A DNA stretch of 64,000 nucleotides from Dryococelus australis (taxonomy: Eukaryota > Arthropoda > Insecta > Phasmatodea > Phasmatidae), in contig CM056994.1 of the NCBI GenBank assembly GCA_029891345.1, positions 58,435,251 to 58,499,250 on the forward strand. The letters run 5' to 3'. The number at the start of each line of letters is the position of its first letter. Positions within the stretch are counted from its first letter, which is position 1. Positions 2,046-64,000 of this stretch are shown in pieces. The notes under the pieces are model-generated. The model ran no database searches and was not told where the DNA came from. It saw nothing but the letters and a program-made list of their open reading frames with translations. The translations under genes were made by a program, and so were the position numbers.

Positions 2046-2458
2046 TATGTGTCTATTAATGATTCTGAGCCCTGCAGGGTGTGTCAAATGAGCGGAGGTC
2101 GAATAACAAACGCGGAATTAACATTTAATTTTATACAATCCTCCTGGATATTGAATTATAATGCTAAATGATAGGGATACTAAACATTACATAAGTACAA
2201 GAAAATTTAGCGAATTATTTGGAGACAGGCCAGTCTTGAACCACGTAGATATTTGGTTTTGTAATTGGACTATAGTTTGTTGGGCACACTTTTAATGCTG
2301 AATTATTAGAAATACTGGGGTGCTGTTGTGACTTAGAAATAGCCAACTTATAAACACATAAACTGAGAAGCACATATTACAGACTTTACTAAGTTACGCC
2401 AGTTCTGAGTTACTTGTAGGTTGTGAACTTTCCACCTCGTGTGTTTCTAGCTTATGAT

Positions 2459-2745
2459 TAGAGCCACGAGTATCTCGCGAATTCATTCGGTGGCGAGGTA
2501 GACTCCAAACTCTTGTTCTTTCCTCCTAGTGTTCTGATTGGACGACAGTTATTTAGACACGCCCCGTTTACCTGTGAGCCAGTAATAAGCAGGAAGCCGT
2601 AGTGTGAGTGAGCATTTTACAGTCCTGTACAGAAACCTCGCTTGATCACACCAACCTATACGCAAACAATAAAAGTCTCGAATGTATAGAAGGCTGTCCA
2701 GACTAGCTTGCTGCCAACTTAATCCGCGAAATACTCGGGACTCTA
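2459..2745. mobile_element. Family C hAT-like MITE with perfect 8-bp TSD
   Basis: TAGAGCCACGAGTATCTCGCG at the left and CGCGAAATACTCGGGACTCTA at the right form the terminal inverted repeat. CTTATGAT at 2451-2458 is repeated exactly at 2746-2753. At 287 bp it cannot encode a transposase. An 8-bp duplication and a TAG(A/G)G start are the hAT hallmarks. Confidence 0.9.
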
Positions 2746-2753
2746 CTTATGAT

Positions 2754-3282
2754 AAATTGAGTTGCCTATTTCTATTGTGTGACTGTACTAATTTGTGTGT
2801 TTCTAAGTTATGATAGATCTAAGTTATTTCTAACATATGGGGATTTTTTTCAAGAATTCAGAATTATGATTGTTCAAAGTTGTGTATTTTTAAATAATGT
2901 TTGGTTCACAATAATACTAATGCCAAATTTTGTGCAACCCAGTCAAGATTATTAATGGTTTATGGTTTCTCTTTGTTGCAGAAGACAGCGAACCAACCAC
3001 GCCTGCTCCAGTGCACAAAGGACTTTGAAATAAAGCCTTACAGGTAAGAGATCCGGCGAATTTTTCTGGTTTTTATTTACACAAGTGTATCAGAAGGCGT
3101 GTCTAAGGAAAACTTTATGTGTTTCTTTCGGGCAACTACATGAAAATTTGATTTCCAAAATTGTTACACTATATCAAAAATGTCTTGTTCTTCTTATCGG
3201 CTCTCAAGACCTCGCTGTTAAGAGCTTCCCAAATCAATAGGACCAGAACCGTAAAATGATGGCTAGGGCCATTTTTCCCTAT
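2754..3282. other. Mostly single-copy flank of the candidate exon
   Basis: Apart from the exon at 2982-3043, no ORF, TIR pair or tandem array is seen. A likely intron on either side of the exon. Confidence 0.5.
2982..3043 (+). CDS. Candidate internal exon of an unidentified gene
   Basis: The left edge follows a textbook acceptor (TTTCTCTTTGTTGCAG, 2966-2981) and the right edge is a strong donor (CAG|GTAAGAG, 3041-3050). The 62-bp exon is open in one frame only, coding about 20 residues starting KTANQPRLLQC and ending EIKPY; the other two frames contain stops. It would enter in phase 0 and leave in phase 2. It lies in sequence with no recognised repeat. I do not recognise the peptide. A noncoding exon or a chance pair of sites is possible. 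Confidence 0.4.
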
Positions 3283-11090: not shown

Positions 11091-11360
11091 AAATTAACAA
11101 GTGCTCCTAATGTTGGTTAACCTCATCAAATCGATATTTCTCCAGAGTATAAAGCGTAAACTCAAAAATCGTTTCGAAAAATTTCACAACGTTTGTTGAA
11201 CCCTTTCGGGCACGCATTAATTTGTGCGCCGATGTGTTGCACTAGTGTAATATTTTGACGTGCACTGTTCTGATTGCTGGCTGCGTAAATATTCTCAATG
11301 CACGTATCTACGATCGTGGACACGTTGACTGAATATTGGTTCCGTTCTCGTGATCTCTGT

Positions 11361-11787
11361 TAAAGGCTGTTCACGTAAACGTGAACACTTTGTGAATGAA
11401 CCTTAGAAAAAAGTTACTGCCCCTGCCTGCATATATTTTAACGGACGCACTGAGTGGCATTCGCCCAGTAAAGTTGGCAACGATGGATGGGAAGTAGTTC
11501 TATATCTTAACGTTGGATAAAAAGTGTTAGGTAACCATTTGTGATGACTTAAATTGCTTCTTTCCCTTTCTGTTTTTTTTTATGCATCGAAGTGTAAAAA
11601 TTAGCAGATTTGTAAAATATTTACTTTCCTAATAATTCCACAGGTTTACCTGACCGACGTATGAATAATGAGATGAGGCCCATGGGAATGTTAATTTTAC
11701 AAAAGGCGAAAGAATACACAACGTGCCTACAATTAGATCGTAAGCAGGGCTATCAAAAGTGCTCATTTTACCACGAACAACATTTAA
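11361..11787 (-). mobile_element. Family A long-form MITE
   Basis: Starts TAAAGGCTGTTCACG and ends with the complement (GTGCTCATTTTACCACGAACAAC). Long-form markers are TTACTGCCCCTGCCTGCATATATTTT, GTTGGATAAAAAGTGTTAGGTAACC and GACCGACGTATGAATAATG. Opposite in orientation to the copy at 12466. Confidence 0.85.
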
Positions 11788-12464: not shown

Positions 12465-12887
12465 CTATAGGCTGTTCACGGTAAAATGATCACTTTTGAA
12501 AGCCCTGCTTAAGATCTATTTGTATGCACGTTGTTTATTCTTTCGCCATATGCGAAATTAACATTGCAATGGGCCTCGTCACTTTATTCATGCGTCGGCC
12601 AAGTGGAACTGAAATTATTACGAAAGTAAGTATTTTACAAATCTGCTAATTTTTACACGTCGATGTATTAAACAAACCGAAGCTAAAGAAATAATTTAAG
12701 TTATCACAAACGGTTACCTAACACTTTTTATTCGATGTTAAGTTATGAAACTACTTTCCATACATCGTTATCAACTTTGCTGGGCGAATGTCACTCGTTA
12801 CGCCCATTAAAATATATGCAGGCAGGGGAGGGACATTTTTCTAAGGTTCATTTCTTAAGTTCTCACGTTTATCGTGAACAGCCTTTA
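12465..12887 (+). mobile_element. Family A long-form MITE
   Basis: ATAGGCTGTTCACGGTAAAATGATCAC at the left and TCTCACGTTTATCGTGAACAGCCTTT at the right, with all long-form internal markers in plus order. With the inverted copy at 11361 it brackets the foldback MITE at 12046. Confidence 0.85.
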
Positions 12888-12899
12888 AGCATTACTGCT

Positions 12900-16420: not shown

Positions 16421-16689
16421 GACACTTCAGGTTTTTACCACGTTAACTGAATTATAGGTTTTCTGAGAATAGTAAAAAAAAAAAATTACGCTTCAAGGGC
16501 ACGCCGAGCCGCCAAGGAGCGTCGCGATGGCGATGGAAAGTAGCGCATAAGCAAGACTCGCGGGTGTTCACTTTCCTCAGACATTTAAGCAGTCATTGTA
16601 GGGTTTTGATAAAGCAATCTGTTGAGAAAAGATATCGCATTTTCGCTATATAGTTTAAAACACTGTATTACAGAATAATAATCATCATT

Positions 16690-17099
16690 ACAGGCTGTTC
16701 ATGATAAAGTGAGCACTTTTGAAATTAACCTTAGAAAAAAGTCACTGCTCCTACCTGCAAATATTTCAACGGGCGTCCTGACAGACATACACCCAGTAAA
16801 GTTGGTAACGATGGAGGGGAAGTAGTTACATATATTAACGTCGAATAAAAAGTGTTAGGTGAATATTTGTGATAACTTATATTATTTCTTTCACTTTATG
16901 TTAATTTTTATTGTTTTGAAGTATAAAGATGGGCAAATTTGGAAAATATTAACTTTTCTAATAATTTCACAGTTTCACTTGACAATGCATGGATAAAGTT
17001 ATAAGGCCGTGGCAACGTTAATTTTACGCAAGGCGGAATAATACATAACGTGCATACAAGTAGTTTTCAAAAGTGTTCATTTTACCGTGAATAGCCTAT
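16690..17099 (-). mobile_element. Family A long-form MITE
   Basis: ACAGGCTGTTCATGATAAAGTGAGCAC at the left, TTCATTTTACCGTGAATAGCCTAT at the right, with long-form internal markers in inverted order. Confidence 0.85.
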
Positions 17100-41090: not shown

Positions 41091-41699
41091 ATACCTGTGG
41101 TTTTTATGGTTGCGTGCTGCACGACTGAAAGTCTGGCTTCATGTCACTCTGCTGATAGAAGCGATATGACATTTCATGAGCGTGCACATGTCGCTCATTC
41201 TGCAAGGTGAAGCTTACCTTGATAAGTATGTTAACGCTTTGAGATACAGAGGTATTAAAGCAGGATTCACACGTTCGTTGATCACGCCGACCATACAGAG
41301 CAGACCGAGCGAATTTTGTTGATTTTGATTCACATGTTATCCGCGCACCCATAATTACCCCCTCAATCGCGGACTAGTAAAGATATATGCAAAGGCGTCG
41401 CAGGCTTGCGATAGATTAAGACTTAAAGAATTAATTGCGTACGTAAGCACAAATATACAAATTACAACCCCGAGAATGAATTTAAGGCATAAAAATTCTA
41501 CAAATAAAATTAATTTAGAATTTTTGAAACAGTTCACGTTTTTAAACGAAATAGTAATTAGCATAACAAATGACTCGTTAGGTTGCAAAAAACTGGATAG
41601 TGCAAGATGTAATAAAATTTAATAGGCCTATATAACATTTATTGTTATTTTTTCATGTGAAAATAGATTTACTATGAATTTACACTAGTAGTAACTTAT
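41091..41699. other. Unassigned left flank of the foldback element
   Basis: The minus ORFs at 41104-41352 and 41355-41588 have no recognised domain. The last ~70 bp may be an eroded outward extension of the terminal inverted repeat. Confidence 0.35.
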
Positions 41700-43080
41700 A
41701 GGAATATCGGTCCAGGCACATGATTCATGAGAAGGAGTCAGCAGCCATCCACCTTTTTGGAATTTTTCCCATTTTCCCTCAAAATGTCCCGTTTTCCCTC
41801 AAAAACACTCAAAATAGTATCATTTTCCACAAAAACTTTTTTCCTCCTCAAAGTTTCCCTTTTTTTCCCTCAAAAAGTCTATCCCCCAGAATATGCATAA
41901 GCGAACCCCCCCCCCCCCCGAAGGCAATTTCCGAGCATTCTGAAAGATTTGGGGGCTCGCTCAGTACTTGTTTACCTCCATCGCAGCACCCCACCCCTAG
42001 TCAAGCTCACATCACCCCCTTCCCAACCCCACAGCCTAAAAATTATTATAAAAATTGAAAAAAAAAGGTCTATAAAATCGGAGAATATATAACATTACTC
42101 TACGCTACCCCTCGCTCATTTCACCACCCTCATCTCACCCCTTCCATCCCCGAAACCTTGAAATTATGATAAAATCGAGAAAAATTGCAATTTTTTTTTC
42201 AAAAAATCAGGATCATATAACACTAAACTACCCTAACCCTAGCTCATTCCATCATCTTCATCTCAGCCCCTCTCTCCCATTACTCCTAGCAATTATTATA
42301 AAAAATCTTTAAAATTCGAAAAGAAATTCTAAAAAATCGGAGAACATACAATGTTGCTCTACCCTACCCCTTGCTCACCCTACCACCTTAACCAACCACA
42401 CACTCCCTCACCACAAACCTACCAGTCACAAAAATTCGAGAATGATCGCAAAAAAAAAAAATCAAAAAATTTCTTCTAAAAGGCGAAGAACTTAAAACGT
42501 TAACATCATACTCATCCCACAACACTAAACTCACACTCTCTCTACCCCCACCCCTCACAATTAATTTAAAATCGAGAAATAATCACAAAAAAATTTATTA
42601 ACATCGAGTAACATGTAACGTTAACCTCACACTCGTCCTGCCCCCTAACCAACCACCCACCCCCTCACCCCAATCTACCAAGTCACAAAAATCCGAGAAT
42701 GATTGCACAAAAAATTGAAAACAATGTTTCTGAAAATCAAAGAACATGTCATGTTAAACTCAGACTCATCCCACCACCCTAATTATCAACCTCTTCTCCT
42801 ACCTACTCACCTTCAACTTTATAAAATCGAGAAAAATTACAAAAAAAAATTACATTCTAAAAATCGAGGATCCTATAACTTTTAACTCACACTCACCACA
42901 CCGCCCTGCCCTGGCAATTATTATAAAATCGTGAAAAGTCACAAAGATTCCTAGAAATCGAGGAAAATATATAATTAGACCCCCTTCCCTTGTTCGTACA
43001 GCCACCCCCCTCCGGCGACTCCTATCCATTACAAAAATCATCAACCCCCCTTCCCCTTTACCAATTCCCTCTTCCATTAA
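41700..43080 (+). repeat. Left arm of foldback element, ~125-bp tandem units
   Basis: After about 380 bp of unique inverted sequence, about eight degenerate units follow the scheme AAAATCGAGAA..ATATAAC.TTACTCTACCCTACCCCTTGCTCATCCCACCACCCTCATCTCACCCC. Unit starts near 42091, 42216, 42347, 42494, 42610, 42746, 42872 and 42967. Strongly C-rich on this strand (little G). A C run lies at 41907-41920. Confidence 0.8.
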
Positions 43081-43356
43081 TTCAACATCTCTTCCACACT
43101 GCACTTGCTCATCAGGCCTGGTTCGACCTTTGCCCTCCTCTACAGCCCCTGGGGTACTGTCAGCATTGTACAGTGCTTGATTCGCAGTCTTAAACGCTCG
43201 GCGACTGGTGGCTTCATCCATAGGCTGAGGTTCTTCGTAGATACACGCCAGCCAAACATTATACTTAATGGGACCTTCAACTTCATATTTTAATTGATTA
43301 ATTATCCTTTGGTTTATGTGGTCCAGATATGTACTGTAAATACATGTCTTTCGCAC
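42850..43356 (-). pseudogene. Downstream part of the foldback element gene (frameshifted)
   Basis: The N-terminal ~68 residues look like a genuine protein segment: a helical stretch with INQRIINQLKYEVEGPIKYN and then WLACIYEEPQP..EATSRRAFKT. After about residue 75 it reads into arm repeats and is meaningless. It overlaps the zinc-finger ORF by 59 bp in another frame, so the two were probably one protein. A short domain with GPIK and a later F-S/T pattern reminds me of the segment N-terminal to virus-type (Polinton-like) DNA polymerases. That is memory of a pattern only and weak. Confidence 0.45.
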
Positions 43357-43786
43357 CTACAAAGTTATTTCCCATCATATAGTCCTCTAAAGTACCCTTG
43401 AATGCTGATTGTTTCAGTTTGAATCTATTCGAAGTGATATCATCAACTGCTAGTACATGTCGTTTCTTAGCTGTACGAACTATACCTTTGCATTTCTTCT
43501 TATGTATCTTCAGCTTGTCAGCACACTTGAACAGATGTTTACATTTGCCGAATCGTTTAATAACACAGGAAGGACCCTTCACGCAAGTAGTTTTTTCATG
43601 CTTCCTTGCACTTTGGCTGTAGGTAAATATCTTTTCACAGTAATAACAACGAAGCCTTGACGAAGTCATAGATGGCTGCACTGCTGTAGATGTTCCATTC
43701 GACGAAGTCGATGGCGTTGTCGGTGCAATGCCTGAAGAAGACGATGGTAGTGCTGCAGGCGTCCCATTTGGAGAAGTCGATAGCAT
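43298..43786 (-). pseudogene. Zinc-finger protein of the foldback element
   Basis: 162 codons, minus strand. A Ser/Thr/Pro-rich N-terminal linker (about residues 1-45, with repeated SSNGT/SPNGT motifs) precedes a CYYCEKIF..H..TTC finger at about residues 48-70. A second Cys/His cluster, CKHLFKC..KLKIHKKKC, is at about 82-99. A basic stretch and DYMMGNNFVGAKDM follow. The finger spacing is not classical C2H2. The reading frame then shifts at about 43300-43356 into the ORF described above. Probably DNA-binding and encoded by the transposon. No transposase catalytic motif is visible. Confidence 0.55.
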
Positions 43787-43911
43787 TGTGCCATCCTCAG
43801 ATGTTGATGGACAGGCATCTTTTGGCTACATAATATATTCCAGTTGCTCAGACGAAGTGTCTTTCCCGACTACCACTGTCAAACTATGCTTCCTAACTGG
43901 GACCCAGCTGC

Positions 43912-44163
43912 TTAGATACCCGGTTCTCTCATGTCGCCGAGTATGGCAGCTTTTCTGAAGATCTTTCCACAGTAGCAACACTGTTTTCCATTTAATTTAC
44001 CAGCAGTGGGAGAAGGTACATCTATAAAGGTAAGCTCTACAGTAGACCTCGTACAATCACTGGCTTGCTTCGCCTTCATGACAAAAACCCAAGTCCTTTC
44101 TACAGTGGCAACGTGTATATCTACTTGGCCTAGCAATTTATATATATATATACTTACTAACAT
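43912..44163 (-). pseudogene. Upstream zinc-finger remnant of the foldback element gene
   Basis: 83 codons ending with CCYCGKIFRKAAILG, which matches the CYYCEKIF motif of the next ORF and so looks like an earlier finger of the same array. The expected His residues are lost and stops separate the two ORFs (43787-43911). The first residues read through a TATATA tract and are not original. Confidence 0.4.
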
Positions 44164-44334
44164 ATTTCATCAGTAAGATTTAAGCATTCGTATGCTTCCA
44201 TTCAACAAGGCATTTTATCTAGTTCCTTGACCACATATCAGTGCAGTTATATCATCAACAGTTTCTTCCAGATAAGTTCTTCGCTCAGCTTGAACTCATG
44301 GTCACACTTAAAGCAGACAACTGATTACTACCAG

Positions 44335-44740
44335 ACCAACCCCTCACAATACTGACCCCTAAATAACCCCATAAATGACCCCTCCTGTTCCACAAATGAC
44401 TCCTAATAACCCCTAAATAACCTCTCCTGCTCCTAAAATGACCCCTAATGACTCTTAAATGATCCCTACATGACCTCTTATGATCCCTAAATGACTCCTG
44501 TTCCAAAAATGTCCCCTTAATGATCCATCCTGCACTCCACAAATGACCCCTCCTGCTCCACAAATGATCCCTCCTATTCCACAAATGGCCCCTCCTGCTC
44601 CACAAATGACACCAATGACCCCTAAATGACACATCTTGCTCCACAAATGACCCCTAAATGACCCTCCTGCTCCACAAATTACCCCTAATGCCCTTCATGT
44701 TCCACAAATGACACCTAATGACCACTAAATGACCCCTGAT
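44335..44740. repeat. Minisatellite of CCACAAATGACCCCT units
   Basis: Over 400 bp of degenerate units built from CCTGCTCCACAAATGACCCC, TAATGACC and CCTAAATGACC. Read on the minus strand they give HLWSRRG-like peptides, which are a by-product of the repeat. Confidence 0.9.
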
Positions 44741-45534
44741 TGTGGCGCGATTGTAGAGCGATTATGGAGCTCGTTGCGGTGCATATTGATGGAAAGATTT
44801 CGAAATTGATATAAAGATTGATGGAAAGATTGATGGAAAGACTACTCTTGGAGACTGACTCCTACATGTGATATCTGAATGCCTACATGCGATTGGCCAG
44901 CTGCAGTCACGTGGCTACTCGGTGACTGTCTGGTCAATGTCCGCACGATGTTTAAAAGGCTCAGAATTAAAATGAATTTTATAAAAAAAAGTATTGTATT
45001 AAGTACCGTTGTACTGCATGCACTGTACAAATATTAAATAAAATAAATAAATTCAGTTTTGAAATTGGAGAACTTAATTTTATAAATAAATAATATCGAT
45101 TTGATAAATTATGCGGTTAGTCAAAGTCCAGCATTATACATATAGGTATACCGATGATTGGAAAAAATTACTTTTTTAATTGGATGAAAATTAGAGATTT
45201 TTGAAATGTAGTTGGTATTAAACAGATATGAGTTCCGACAATTCGCCTGACTTATAAATCGGTAGAATAAGCCTATATTGACAGCTTTACTTACATTAAA
45301 GAGCCTAGCTTGTGCCCACAAAAGGCCTTCTTCCATAAAATTTACATGTAAATAATATGGGAGCACTCTGAGAAAACCCACATACTCGTTCGCTCTAGAA
45401 GAAACCACGCTTAGAAAGGTATAAAAATAATAATGTATTAAATAAACTCAAAATAATTTTATATTTATATATACATATGCTTACAAGTATATTAAAATAA
45501 CATTTTGTTATGTAAGTACCTGCATGTTTTCTTC
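44741..45534. other. Non-repetitive right interior of the foldback element
   Basis: Includes AAAGATTGATGGAAAGATTGATGG short repeats (about 44790-44840), an (AATA)n stretch near 45035-45055, and minus ORFs of 62 and 95 codons without recognised domains. Confidence 0.4.
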
Positions 45535-46383
45535 TGGAGTGGTGGGGTTAATGTGAGGTTACAATATATGTTGCTCGATTTTTAGAAATTTTTTGGGATT
45601 ATTTCTTGATTTTAAAATAATTGCTAGGTAGGATTGGGGGTAGAGAGGGGGTTACTTGAGTGTGGGTGTATGAGTGTGAGGTTAATGTGACATGATGTTC
45701 GATTTTTAGAATCACTTTTGCGAATTTTTGCGATTTTGCTACAATTTTTGTGAATGGGTGGATTGTTGTGTGGGGGTGGGTGGTTGGTTAGGGTGGCGGA
45801 TGAGCAAGGGGTAGGGTAGTGCTGCGTTACACGTTCTTTAATTTTTTAGAATTTCCAGGGGGTGGTGGTCCAGAGGGGGTGAGGTGAAGTTTGTGGAATG
45901 AGCAAGGGGTAGGGTAGTGTAGCATTATATGTTATTAGATTTTAAAAATATTTTTGCTATTGGGAAGGGCGTGAGGTAAGGGTCTTGGGATGAGCGAGAG
46001 GTAGCGTGGGGTAACATTATATGTTCCTCGATTTTCTATTTTTTTTTGCTATTTTTATAGTAATTTCTTTGGGGTGGGGATGAGAAGGGGGTGAGGTGAG
46101 CTTGGTTAGGGAAGGAGTTAGGGGGTGGAGGCCTACAAGTACTAAGTGAGCCCCCAAATCTTTCAAATGGCTCGAAAATTGCCTTTCGAGGGCTCGCTTA
46201 TGCATATTCTGGGGCATGGACACATTTATAAGGCAAACATGGGACATTTTGGGAAAAATTCTACGAATTTTAAATGTTTCAAGTGATAACAGAAAATTTT
46301 GAGGAAAAAATGGGGAAAAAATTTTATATGGCGGACGGCTCCTGTCTCCTACTCATGAATCATGTGCCTGAACCGACATTCCT
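45535..46383 (-). repeat. Right arm of foldback element
   Basis: About five degenerate units, inverted relative to the left arm (TATGTTGCTCGATTTTTAGAAATTTTT, GGGTAGGGTAGTG, GAGGTGAG), followed by the unique inverted end. Shorter than the left arm by about 500 bp. Confidence 0.8.
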
Positions 46384-46664
46384 TTACACTTACCAAATAA
46401 AACATATAGCAATGCTTTCTATATGTTAAAATTAAAAAATATAACTTATTCAGCTTTAAAATTGATTACATTTTAAATACGTTAATTTATATAATCCCAT
46501 AATAATTCTAAAACAAATCTTAACAAAATTTAGTTTTTTTTTTTTATTAGCACTTACGATCAGGATAAATGCCAATGAAACTGTTTCCATCGATACGCCA
46601 CACAAATATCACATTTCTTTCATATTATTTACGATGAAAAATGCATACGTATCAAAAAATTTTG

Positions 46665-52268: not shown

Positions 52269-52692
52269 ATAGGCTGTTCACGGTAAAATGAGCACTTTTG
52301 AAAGCCCTGCTGAAGATCTACTTGTATACACGTTGTGTATTTCCCGCCTTATGTAAAATTAGCATTACCATGGGCCTCATCACTTTATTCATGCGTCGCC
52401 CAAGTGAAACTGCGAAATTATTAGAAAAGTAAATATTGCACAAACCTGCTCACTTTTACACTTCGACGCATTAAAAAATACAGAAAGCGAGATAAATTAT
52501 TTAAGTTATCACAAATGGTTACCTAATACTTTTAATTCGACGTAAATATATGGAACTACTTTCCCCTCCATCGTTACAAACTTTACTGGGCGCATGTCAC
52601 TCATTGCGCCCGTTCATATATATACAAGTAGAGGGAGTGACTTTTTTCTAAGGCTAATTTCAAAAGTGCTCACTTGATCGTGAACAGCCTTT
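52269..52692 (+). mobile_element. Family A long-form MITE
   Basis: ATAGGCTGTTCACGGTAAAATGAGCAC to GTGCTCACTTGATCGTGAACAGCCTTT. All long-form markers present in plus order; the best-preserved long form. Confidence 0.9.
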
Positions 52693-53388
52693 AGTAATCA
52701 GATTGTTGTCTAAGAGGAATGGAAAACTATATTAAAAAAATATTCATGTAGAGTTAACTACTGGGGCTATTTTAACCTTACATAGCCAATACGCGAGGCA
52801 TAGTCGGTTAATACGACGGATTACTGCGCGAACGGCACTGGACTCGAATCCCGTGAAACCCGTTTGTAACAGCACGTAAGATGATCCGCCATCATCCAAC
52901 CTGCGCAGAACCGGGGCGTAAATAAACTACATTTAAAACGTTCTTAACTTGGCGTATGTAAATGCTTCCTTTTATTCGACGCTTTGATTTTACTCAACTA
53001 ATTTGGTTACTTAATTATTTGCGATTTATGTTGGTGCAACTAACAGTTTATATATTTTGTTTTGATCTGTTCTCGAGTTGACACAGCAGTTTCTTTTTGT
53101 CGGCACCTGTTACGTACGTGCCTATGGCTTGGAAAGAAGGAATTACTTCGGGGACTTCAATGATTTGAACTCTAAAGTAGTCAATCTACCATTAGTTTCT
53201 AAAACATGGCGACAAACTTCGGCAGACAATTCCTTAAGAAAATATAAGAATAAAATGTATGTAAATTTATACCCAAAAACTATTGTTAAAGGAGCTATGC
53301 GCCCCTAAAATTTGAGTTTTAAAATTCGTTTAGTTAAAATTTCAGAAAATACTTGTCATTAAACAAAACATTGGTGAATGTTGTTTAT

Positions 53389-53473: not shown

Positions 53474-53790
53474 TAGGCTGTTCACGGTAAACTGAGCACT
53501 GTTGAAAGCCCTGCTTAGGATCTGCTTGTAAGCACGTTGTCTATTATTCCGCCTTATGTAAATTTAACATTGCAATGGGCCTCATTACTTTATTCATGCG
53601 TCGGTCAAGTGAAACTGCGAAATAATTAGAAACGTTAATATTTTACAATCCTGCTTATTTTTACACTTCGATGCATTAAAAAGAACAGAAAGTGAAAGTA
53701 ATAATTTAAATTATCACAGATGATTACGTAACACGTTTTATTCGACGTTAACTTTCCCTCCATTGTTACCAAATTTACTGGGCGCATGTC
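53474..53790 (+). mobile_element. Family A long-form MITE, right end lost
   Basis: ATAGGCTGTTCACGGTAAACTGAGCAC to CTTTACTGGGCGCATGTCA, then a switch to family B sequence. Confidence 0.85.
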
Positions 53791-53804
53791 AAACAACACG
53801 TCGA

Positions 53805-56228: not shown

Positions 56229-56398
56229 TACGCCTACCGCAATTTTTTTTTTTTCTCTTTGCCCGTGTCTATCGCTCCTCGCCTTCTCGCAGGGAGAAAG
56301 TAGGCCACTTGAGCCCCGCAGTGTTGCTGTTTCTTTTTCTACAATCTACCAGCGTACTCTGACCAAGGGTACGGGACTGCCGGCTGAGAACTAGTAGG

Positions 56399-56832
56399 TA
56401 AAGGCTGTTTACGATTAAGTGAACACTCTATAACTGAACCTTTTAGAAAAGTCACTGCCCCTGCCTGCATGCATATATTTTGACAGGCTCACTGAGTGAC
56501 ATTCGTCCAGTAAAGTTTGTAACGATAGATGGAAAGTAGTTCTATATCTTAACGTCGAATAAAAAGTGTTAGGTAACCATCTGTCATAACTTAAAAATTA
56601 TTTCTTTCGTTTCATGTTTTTTTTTTATTGCATCGACGTGTAAAAATGAGCAGATTTGTAAAGTACTTACTTTCTTAATAATTTCAGAGTTTCAGTTTGA
56701 CCGACGTATGAATAAAGTGATGAGGCCGATTGCAATGTTAATTTTACACAAGGCGGAAGAATACACAAAGTATTTACAAGTAGGTCTTAAGCAGGGCTTT
56801 CAAAAGTACTTATTTTACCGTGAATTGACTAT
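56399..56832 (-). mobile_element. Family A long-form MITE
   Basis: TAAAGGCTGTTTACGATTAAGTGAACAC to GTACTTATTTTACCGTGAATTGACTAT, long-form markers inverted. Confidence 0.87.
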
Positions 56833-57029: not shown

Positions 57030-58312
57030 CAGAGTGTTCCAAAATGATCTTTACAATTTTGCCCTTATATTTCAGAAACAGTGAAAGATAGAAAGGTGCG
57101 GTTTGCGGCACAATGTCCACACACTCACCTAACGTCTTAGTAGCCGTTTAACAGAGTTCAGTGTGTGCGCCATCTGTAGCACGCAGGACATCTAAGTGAT
57201 ATTCCAGTTCCGCCCACGTCTGGCCTAGCATGTCTTAATTAACGTGTTCAGTTGCTGCTGTTATACGAGCTCGCAGTTCCTGTAGGTCCCGCACTGGGGT
57301 CTGGTAGACCACATCCTTCACAAAGCCCCATAGGAAAACATCCAGTGGGGTTATGCCTGGAGACCTTGGGGGCCAGGAAATGGGTCCTTCTCTGCCAATC
57401 CAGAGACCTGGAAATGTGTCGTCCAAAGCTGCCATAACGACCAAGGCCCAGTGAGGAGGAGCACCATCCTGATGTCAGGTTGCAGATCTTCGACCTGTGG
57501 AAATGCAAACTGTTCCAACATGTCCAGGTAAACAATCGAGGTTATTGAGGCCTCTGCAAAGAAAAAGGGTCCCCCACCACACGGTCATGAAGCAGACCAC
57601 ACCACACGTTTACCTTTGAACTGTCTCGCACAGTTTCCATGCTAAAGTGGAGATTCTCAGAGCTCCATATCCTCACATTGTGGCGGTTTACCTTCCCGGA
57701 CACATGAAAACAAGCTTCGTCCGTGAACTTCACCTTTTTCAGAAAGTCTGGGTCGTCGTCGATGCGATTCAGAATCTCAATTGCAAATGCTTTGCGCTTT
57801 GGCCTGTCAACAGGTTGAAGCGCATGCAGCAGCTGCACCTTGTAGGCATGCAGCTTCAGTCTCTTGTGCAGCACCCTGTGCACCGTGGTCGTGGGTAACT
57901 GCAACTGTCGAGAAGCACTACGAATTGATTTGGCGGGGCTCCGGATAAATGCCTCTTGCACCCGTTCCACATCTGCATAACTCGTGAATTGTCTTCCAGA
58001 ACTCGTCCTCTTCAAGACACTTCCGGTTTCCTTGAACCTCGTGTACCAGTGTCTGATGGCCGGACGTGATGATGGCGTGCTTCTGTAACGTGTCCGGAAC
58101 TTCCTCTGGACCTGGGTGTCAGATTTGGTCTCTTTAACACTGTGCCATCTGCTGGGAGGTGGCAATTTTAGTCACTGACTAACCTGCACAAACATGCACC
58201 GAAAGAACTTTAGGTGTGTGTGAACATTGTGCCGCAAACCGCACCTTTCTATCTTTCCCCGTTTCTGAAATATAAGCGATCAAATATGTAAAGATCATTT
58301 TAGATCATTCTG
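57030..58312 (-). mobile_element. Mariner-type element, full length (1,283 bp), TA duplication
   Basis: The ends CAGAGTGTTCCAAAATGATCTTTACA and, inverted from the right, CAGAATGATCTAAAATGATCTTTACA begin TIRs of about 85 bp that include GAAAGATAGAAAGGTGCGGTTTGCGGCACAATGT. Both sides are flanked by TA. Length, TIRs and TA target all fit IS630/Tc1/mariner. Confidence 0.92.
57235..58165 (-). pseudogene. Mariner-type transposase, frameshifted and catalytically dead
   Basis: Starts at the ATG at 58165. The first ORF (207 codons) carries a helix-turn-helix region (RHWYTRFKETGSVLKR near residue 40, then SIRSASRQLQLPTTTVHRVL) and the first catalytic block KVKFTDEACFHVSGKVNRHN. The frame is lost near 57540. 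The second block QDGAPPHW and the third region WPPRSPGITPLDVFLWG are read from another frame near 57330-57460. In relatives the third motif is SPD; here it is SPG, so the third Asp is gone. The family normally cuts and pastes its own element at TA. It is close to the arthropod transposases that carry the DUF4817 helix-turn-helix; that is from memory. Confidence 0.88.
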
Positions 58313-60405: not shown

Positions 60406-61299
60406 ACATGTCCACCCTTCGTTACACGGCACACATCTGATCTGTAGTCCATTTTTGCCCATATGCGAGCCAGCATATCAGGAGTGACGATAAGAACAGC
60501 TGCGGTGATGCGGTTTTGCGAGTCATCGAGGTTCTGTGGTAGATGTGGACCATGACCTTTATCCTTGACATAACCCCACAAGAAAAAATCGCAGAGCGTG
60601 AAGTCCGGTGACCGTGGTGGCCACCGGAGTAGCGCAACGTCTCATTCAGGTAACTTCGTACAAAACTGTTGAAATGTGGAGGGGCGCCGCTGTTGGAAGA
60701 TGAAAATCCCTGCTGTCAGCTTCCAGTTGTGGCATGAGTCACAATTGCAGCAGGTCGAGATAGGTCACACCGTTGACAGGTCTCTCAGCGAAGAAGAAGG
60801 GGTCAATTGTCTTGTTGGACATGGCACAGAACACGTTAACTTTCGGCGAATCGCGGACGTGCTCGAGAGTTGCATGTGGATTATCCGTTCTCCAAACGCG
60901 TGTGTTGTGTCTGTTGACCTTTCCTGAAAGATAGAAAGTTGCTTTGTCACTGAAGATGAATTTGTTTCGGATGTCGTCATCTTCCAGATGCAGAACTGCA
61001 GTCGGGGCAATTTGTCGTCGTGGCTTATGGCTTGCAGGAGCTGCAATTTGTAAGGGCTTCACTCTTGACCGTTTAAGAAGGATTTTCCACACTGTTGGCT
61101 GAGGGATGTTCAATTCCGCACTAGCTCGGTAGGTTGGCTTTCTGGGACTACGCTGCATCACGTCCCTCACACGGACCACCGTTTGTTCCGACACGTCAGG
61201 TTTTTGCATTGCACAAACAACCATCGTCCTCGAAATTCTTATACCACGTCACTATGCTACTTGGTATGGAAAGCTCTTTGCATACACACTACCGATTGG
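60406..61299 (-). pseudogene. Second mariner-type transposase relic, interrupted by H
   Basis: The main ORF (60739-61224) has the HTH segment SPRKPTYRASAELNIPQPTV, the first catalytic block KFIFSDKATFYLSGKVNRHN (Asp kept, the following Glu replaced by Lys) and SPKVNVFCAMSNKTI. Another frame near 60560-60620 reads WPPRSPDFTLCDFFLWG, keeping the third Asp that the 57-kb copy lost. Upstream, WYKNFEDDG is in a third frame before the H insertion at 61300. The QDG block is not clear. No TIRs are recognised. It is a different subfamily from the 57-kb copy and is inactive. Confidence 0.85.
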
Positions 61300-63701: not shown

Positions 63702-64000
63702 ATAAGCTATTCACGGTAAAATGAGCACTTTTGAAAGCCCTGCTTAGGATATACTTGTATACACGTTATGTATTCTTCCGCCTTATGTAAAATTAACATT
63801 GCGATGTGTCTCATCACTTTATTCATGCGTTGGTCAAGTGAAACTGTGAAATTATTAGAAAAGTAAATATTTGACAAATGTTCTCATTTTTACAATTCGA
63901 TGCATTAAAAAACACAGAAAGCGAAAGAAATAATTTAAGTTATCAGGGTTGCCTAATACTTTTTATTCGACGCTGTGATACGGAACTACTTCCCATCCAT
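63702..64000 (+). mobile_element. Family A long-form MITE, cut by the window end
   Basis: ATAAGCTATTCACGGTAAAATGAGCAC starts a long-form copy. It runs to CTACTTCCCATCCAT at the last base. Confidence 0.88.

Follow-up and report, generated by a model that had tools for sequence, protein, structure and literature searches.

A decayed foldback element in the phasmid Dryococelus australis with probable ties to the Maverick/Polinton lineage

Background

What kind of mobile DNA gives rise to an element with long, repetitive inverted arms on either side of a zinc-finger reading frame? The question is raised by a 4698-bp element (41687-46384) in a 64,000-nucleotide stretch of the genome of the insect Dryococelus australis (assembly GCA_029891345.1, contig CM056994.1, positions 58,435,251 to 58,499,250, forward strand), referred to throughout as the window. 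Foldback elements are usually classed with the cut-and-paste superfamilies, and an initial annotation, made from the sequence alone, had likened this one to the FB and Galileo elements of Drosophila and regarded a zinc-finger protein as its own product. The analysis presented here indicates that it is most probably a decayed, non-autonomous foldback derivative, tied by its ends and its target duplication to the Maverick/Polinton lineage.

The element, its ends and its relatives

The element is flanked on both sides by the hexamer TACACT, and the limits first proposed for it (41700-46383) were close to those now adopted. The left end, at 41687, reads AGTAGT. The right end is eroded, the canonical form being present in relatives; its limit was placed at the position where the flanks match and it is probably some 7 bases short relative to those relatives. 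Alignment of 41700-42631 with 46383-45552 covered ~0.93 kb with 648 matches, 174 mismatches and 120 gap columns (79% identity when gaps are left out), and its local score of 736 compares with a maximum of 74 for 100 dinucleotide-preserving shuffles of the left arm. The ends are therefore inverted copies, as first described, with arms of about 0.83-1.37 kb, and the reported bias in base composition was also found (31% C and 9% G in the left arm, 35% G and 7% C in the right). The supposed arrays of a ~125-bp unit stood up only in part. Repeated blocks are present, but their spacing is approximate (121-133 bp in the left arm, where the blocks are ~60-78% alike, and a less regular ~92-134 bp in the right), and no array of that period was called in the arms by Tandem Repeats Finder.

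The genome searched comprises 3.4 Gb in 646 contigs, and those encountered here, C1-C17, have the size of chromosomes (63-403 Mb; C9 judged by its coordinates alone). A search with the first 600 bases of the left arm, in which 40 of 373 candidates were scored and two were the window element's own arms, found at least 38 other places with 66-82% identity. Twenty regions covering 22 of the 38 were fetched. A terminus was located in 17 of them, and 17 of 21 ends, counted by eye, begin AGTAG. Copies with both ends were looked for and four of those fetched (L014, L020, L022 and L023) have them. It is clear that the window element belongs to a mobile family with many relatives in its own genome.

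Target duplications were examined in six end pairs, five from copies of the arm family (window, L014, L020, L022 and L023) and one from a 12.4-kb element described below. At length 6 the flanks match at 6, 5, 5, 5, 6 and 5 of 6 bases respectively, and among lengths 4-10 this length gave the best match fraction in every pair, barring an alternative end of L023. For L014, L020 and the 12.4-kb element the duplication was called without any choice of end.

The link to Maverick/Polinton elements

Vertebrate Mavericks are described as having (AGT)2//(ACT)2 ends, 6-bp target duplications and terminal inverted repeats of 46-1447 bp (PMC8097293). The end motif of the window family, AGTAGTATAGGAATGTCGGTTCAGG, was found with up to 3 mismatches at 74 genomic places, versus 0 for a reversed control. 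Two ends of this type bracket the 12.4-kb element (L032/L033, C1:207308039-207320447), which also has tandem-repeat arms. Pfam matches over cut-off identified PLA2-like, double-jelly-roll capsid and Bro-N domains in it, while those to the integrase domain rve (E 8e-4) and to an adenovirus-type protease (E 4e-3) fell below. Its polymerase pieces were not called by Pfam but match a polymerase at locus L030 (tblastn E 6e-29), for which the DNA_pol_B_2 match is itself below cut-off; 5 of the 150 genome places listed for the L030 polymerase overlap DNA_pol_B_2 matches over cut-off (compared by eye). The N-terminus of the 12.4-kb element's polymerase has a family-type end within 20 kb at 4 of 150 places, its own included, where 0.13 pairs were expected. 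Several frames of the 12.4-kb element are broken, and certain of its end variants are found in identical form at other places.

The finger gene

As first noted, the centre carries a Cys/His-finger frame and a minisatellite. All Pfam matches of the finger frame (43298-43825) are below cut-off (zf-C2H2 E 0.16). Related sequences occur in at least 149 other genomic places at 51-73% identity, mostly with internal stops (150 of 18231 first-look candidates scored), and the copies run on into a block terminating in a GSGW-like motif. At locus L045 the order is C2H2 fingers, a TAFRGNL-like block, a YLNSMRQNL-like block, GSGW and polymerase, with the fingers over cut-off and the whole directly upstream of a DNA_pol_B_2 match that is also over cut-off; L043 and L044 have the same order in broken form. 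In pairwise BLASTP against L045, E values were 7e-18 for the window frame 42850-43356 (47% over 66 aa), 2e-8 for the finger frame and 1e-19 for the finger copy at L030. The scores of both window frames against L045 were reached by none of 1000 shuffles, the tests being run on the finger frame without its first 40 residues and on the first 80 residues only of the second frame. Against L044 the second frame was equalled in 0 and the finger frame in 10 of 1000 shuffles, and against L043 the finger frame in 1 of 1000.

On this evidence the finger frame belongs to a family-B DNA polymerase gene like that of L045, of which it forms the N-terminus, and a frameshift near 43.3 kb has broken it. Homology to polymerase N-termini rules out a stand-alone zinc-finger protein. 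The idea of a product of the element's own holds to the extent that the segment is repeated with the family and is not a host gene, but what is repeated is the N-terminal part of a polymerase, frameshifted and lacking the catalytic domain, and the window copy cannot make a polymerase. The gene is oriented from the centre outward to the arm. Searches of solved structures gave no match better than E 0.28, and neither the finger frame nor a Maverick polymerase piece found relatives among viral contigs.

The gene segment has been found repeatedly beside the arms. Among the 150 finger places and 40 arm places listed there were 6 pairs within 25 kb, where 0.09 were expected. Two of these are the window itself, three (C4:110.88M, C7:164.34M and C17:88.86M) share its spacing, with 1.2-1.3 kb from finger segment to arm, and its relative orientation, and one, 22 kb apart, departs from this arrangement. 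At C4:8.34M a finger place and a family end lie 2.3 kb apart (0.16 expected). Of the 20 arm loci, 11 have a finger-segment homologue of window 43912-44166 (tblastn E<=1e-3), and a twelfth has one at E 0.07. The gene segment is also carried by loci where none of these arms occurs in the stretch read. At L011 a remnant of a Maverick-type integrase (2083-2804, minus strand; E 1e-19 to the L032 integrase) lies about 0.9 kb from the centre of an arm-bearing copy.

The polymerase gene at L030, on the opposite strand and 5 kb from the finger copy there, was at one stage considered to be the family's own, but is now taken to represent another very abundant polymerase family. It is a broken family-B gene (L030:5771-9366, minus strand) of a hugely repeated kind (19676 first-look candidates, 150 scored). 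Finger places and polymerases of this type form two pairs within 25 kb, both convergent, where 0.33 were expected, which leaves some chance of a link between them.

Evidence against a Maverick origin, and alternative explanations

A number of observations weigh against the Maverick reading. For the window element, L022 and L023 the flanks were taken into account in choosing the end, which biases the outcome towards a match; L023 with its alternative end matches 7/7 at length 7, and the flanks of L014 match 6/8 at length 8. The ends of the arm family and of the 12.4-kb element are alike over ~30-45 bp and not beyond. Similarity to the polymerase N-terminus of the 12.4-kb element itself is not significant for the window finger frame or for the copy at L030, the Maverick-type L048 has no significant similarity to the finger frame or the second frame (520 and 466 of 1000 shuffles), and for the second frame against L043 769 of 1000 shuffles were as good. 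Queries with a polymerase core, capsid, protease and PLA2 gave no match at E<=1e-3, whether in the window or in the 20 arm loci, although these queries came from other families and have limited sensitivity. The partial lists of arms and of L030-type polymerases gave no coordinate pairs, with 0.09 expected by chance, and the L044/L045-type polymerase genes have no such arms within 3.7 kb downstream of each. The integrase remnant at L011 is a single case that may or may not lie inside an arm copy, and no argument is built on it; with 40 of 204 candidates scored, its 39 other places are all more than 20 kb from any arm in the lists, which are partial. An autonomous partner bearing these arms is hypothetical.

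The alternative that survives best, though it is considered unlikely, is a chimera in which a foldback family of unknown class captured a polymerase segment from an unrelated, abundant element of the L029/L051 type, so that the gene would say nothing of how the arms move. The segment 43137-43918 is indeed found elsewhere without these arms (L029 and L030), there is a sharp junction at 43918/43929, and for 3.5 kb L029 runs collinear with L051, a palindrome of 98.3% identity that has none of these arms in the stretch read. Capture accords less well with the presence of the neighbouring finger segment in 11 of the 20 arm loci, and the ends and duplication indicate a Maverick lineage independently of the gene.

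Less probable still, and largely refuted, is membership of the FB or Galileo type of DNA transposon (MULE or P superfamily), with arms that bind transposase and a finger protein acting as regulator or as part of the transposase. The annotation was right that this is a mobile family of foldback architecture, with long inverted arms of tandem blocks and a coding centre. Its strong structural decay and chimerism are also as reported for Galileo (PMC3573991), and the end pair of L023 is compatible with a 7-bp duplication too. The best duplication length, at 6 bp, is that of neither type, the ends of the family read AGTAG(T), the homology of the finger frame is to the N-terminus of a polymerase and no transposase was matched by Pfam in the four window frames submitted. 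The nearest kin by end motif and duplication are Maverick/Polinton elements. A host zinc-finger gene inside a chance inverted repeat, for which only the openness of the frame over 175 aa speaks, is refuted by copy number and has a negligible chance, there being at least 38 other arm-related and 149 other finger places, the latter mostly with internal stops and a few next to these arms in matching orientation, as well as a flanking duplication.

Palindromic relatives and a possible origin of the foldback shape

The relative L023 is self-complementary over nearly its full length, its main paired stretches being 73-79% alike with ~0.36 kb of the left arm unpaired. Homology of the window element to the left half of L023 stops at ~45505, just before the window's right arm. 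Inverted pairs of finger places, less than 25 kb apart, were found at four further loci, and a fifth has an inverted pair of upstream finger segments. In the related finger family, L051 (C1:201929000-201938400) has palindrome arms of at least 3.2 kb that reach the end of the stretch read, with the polymerase N-terminal segment in both; the palindrome reads as very recent.

If the family does derive from Mavericks, a protein-primed polymerase would have copied the element in linear form, starting at its ends, where the repeated AGT permits jump-back at initiation. Such a role has been proposed for the repeated ends of Mavericks (PMC8097293). A Maverick-type integrase would then insert the element with a 6-bp stagger, polymerase and integrase both coming in trans from those fuller Mavericks of the genome whose ends match. 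The existence of a relative, L023, that is palindromic over nearly its full length suggests snapback as the origin of the foldback shape, and snapback or template switching during replication would be its most likely source, yielding near-symmetric palindromes such as L023 and asymmetric ones such as the window element, with repeat growth and decay following palindrome formation. Supply in trans and a snapback origin are both what we infer. The more general proposal, that snapback of a displaced strand in a protein-primed, virus-like transposon can produce near-symmetric palindromes (L023, L051) and asymmetric foldbacks (window) able to spread afterwards by parasitizing fuller Mavericks, is tentative and has rather less than an even chance of being correct.

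No description of foldback Mavericks was found in the literature, as covered by titles and the openings of abstracts, with most subscription journals outside the search. If the family is a Maverick derivative, its foldback shape would be convergent and reached by a route independent of cut-and-paste transposons. Unclassified foldbacks in large genomes would then deserve testing for AGT ends and 6-bp duplications, and Maverick replication would be expected to yield, as a by-product open to testing, palindromes resembling defective interfering genomes.

Features of the window

The features of the element are collected in Table 1. Elsewhere in the window there is a fragment of a Tc1/mariner-like transposase at 57542-58171 (minus strand), with helix-turn-helix matches below cut-off (E 4e-4 to 1e-2), and a second Tc1/mariner-like fragment, recognised by eye only and without a Pfam match, at 60739-61248 (minus strand). 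A dispersed repeat of up to ~430 bp occurs at seven places (11359-11783, 12473-12888, 16688-17091, 52275-52693, 53479-53791, 56396-56824 and 63710-63994) and also in 12 other fetched loci.

Table 1. Coordinates of the foldback element and its parts within the window
Feature	Position	Strand	Basis
Target duplication, left copy, TACACT (6 bp)	41681..41686	.	flank comparison
Left inverted arm, starting AGTAGTA; rich in C, with degenerate tandem blocks at a spacing of ~121-133 bp; limit on the inner side approximate	41687..43060	+	
Second polymerase-type block, in another frame; homologous part ~43138-43332	frame 42850-43356	-	
N-terminal segment of family-B DNA polymerase gene, frameshifted, polymerase domain absent	43137..43918	-	
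C2H2-like finger frame, 175 aa, open	43298-43825	-	
Upstream finger-coding segment, common to other arm-bearing copies	43929..44166	-	
Minisatellite, ~21-42 bp units, upstream of finger segment; relatives have one too	44353..44724	.	Tandem Repeats Finder
Inner centre; homology to left half of palindromic copy L023 stops ~45505	44750..45505	.	
Right inverted arm, rich in G, with degenerate blocks and erosion of the outermost end	45552..46384	-	
Target duplication, right copy, TACACT (6 bp)	46385..46390	.	flank comparison

Comparison with known systems

The FB elements of Drosophila have a foldback shape built of short tandem repeats and make a 9-bp duplication; they are not known to have a polymerase gene. 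Inverted arms of tandem repeats are found in the window element as well, but are common to other superfamilies and so not diagnostic, and a 9-bp duplication is not seen in its family. Galileo, also of Drosophila, shares long, internally repetitive inverted arms and chimeric, decayed copies, and is described as having a 7-bp duplication and a P-superfamily transposase (PMC3573991). The best-fitting duplication of the window family is not of 7 bp, though L023 also fits that length, and the four window frames submitted to Pfam gave no transposase match.

A likeness of another kind is offered by adeno-associated virus (AAV), the snapback subgenomes of which, in symmetric and asymmetric forms, are self-complementary half-genomes that keep a viral end (PMC8235507). 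L023 would be the analogue of the symmetric form and the window copy of the asymmetric one. AAV is a parvovirus with a different mode of replication, and the likeness is one of process only.

The closest known systems are Maverick/Polinton elements, adintovirus-like ones included. Those of the vertebrate set (PMC8097293) measure 12.7-24.6 kb, against 4.7 kb for the window element, which is also unlike them in that its arms are built of degenerate tandem blocks, with a G/C bias that is opposite in the two arms, and its gene reads from the centre to the arm. Integrase, capsid and protease, which belong to a Maverick proper, were not found in the window, no ATPase query having been made. The element fails these tests of gene content and is therefore filed as a derivative rather than a member. 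What it shares with Mavericks are AGT-repeat ends, a 6-bp duplication, an arm length within the range of 46-1447 bp and polymerase-B content, the last as an N-terminal fragment only, and a fuller element with matching ends is present in the same genome.

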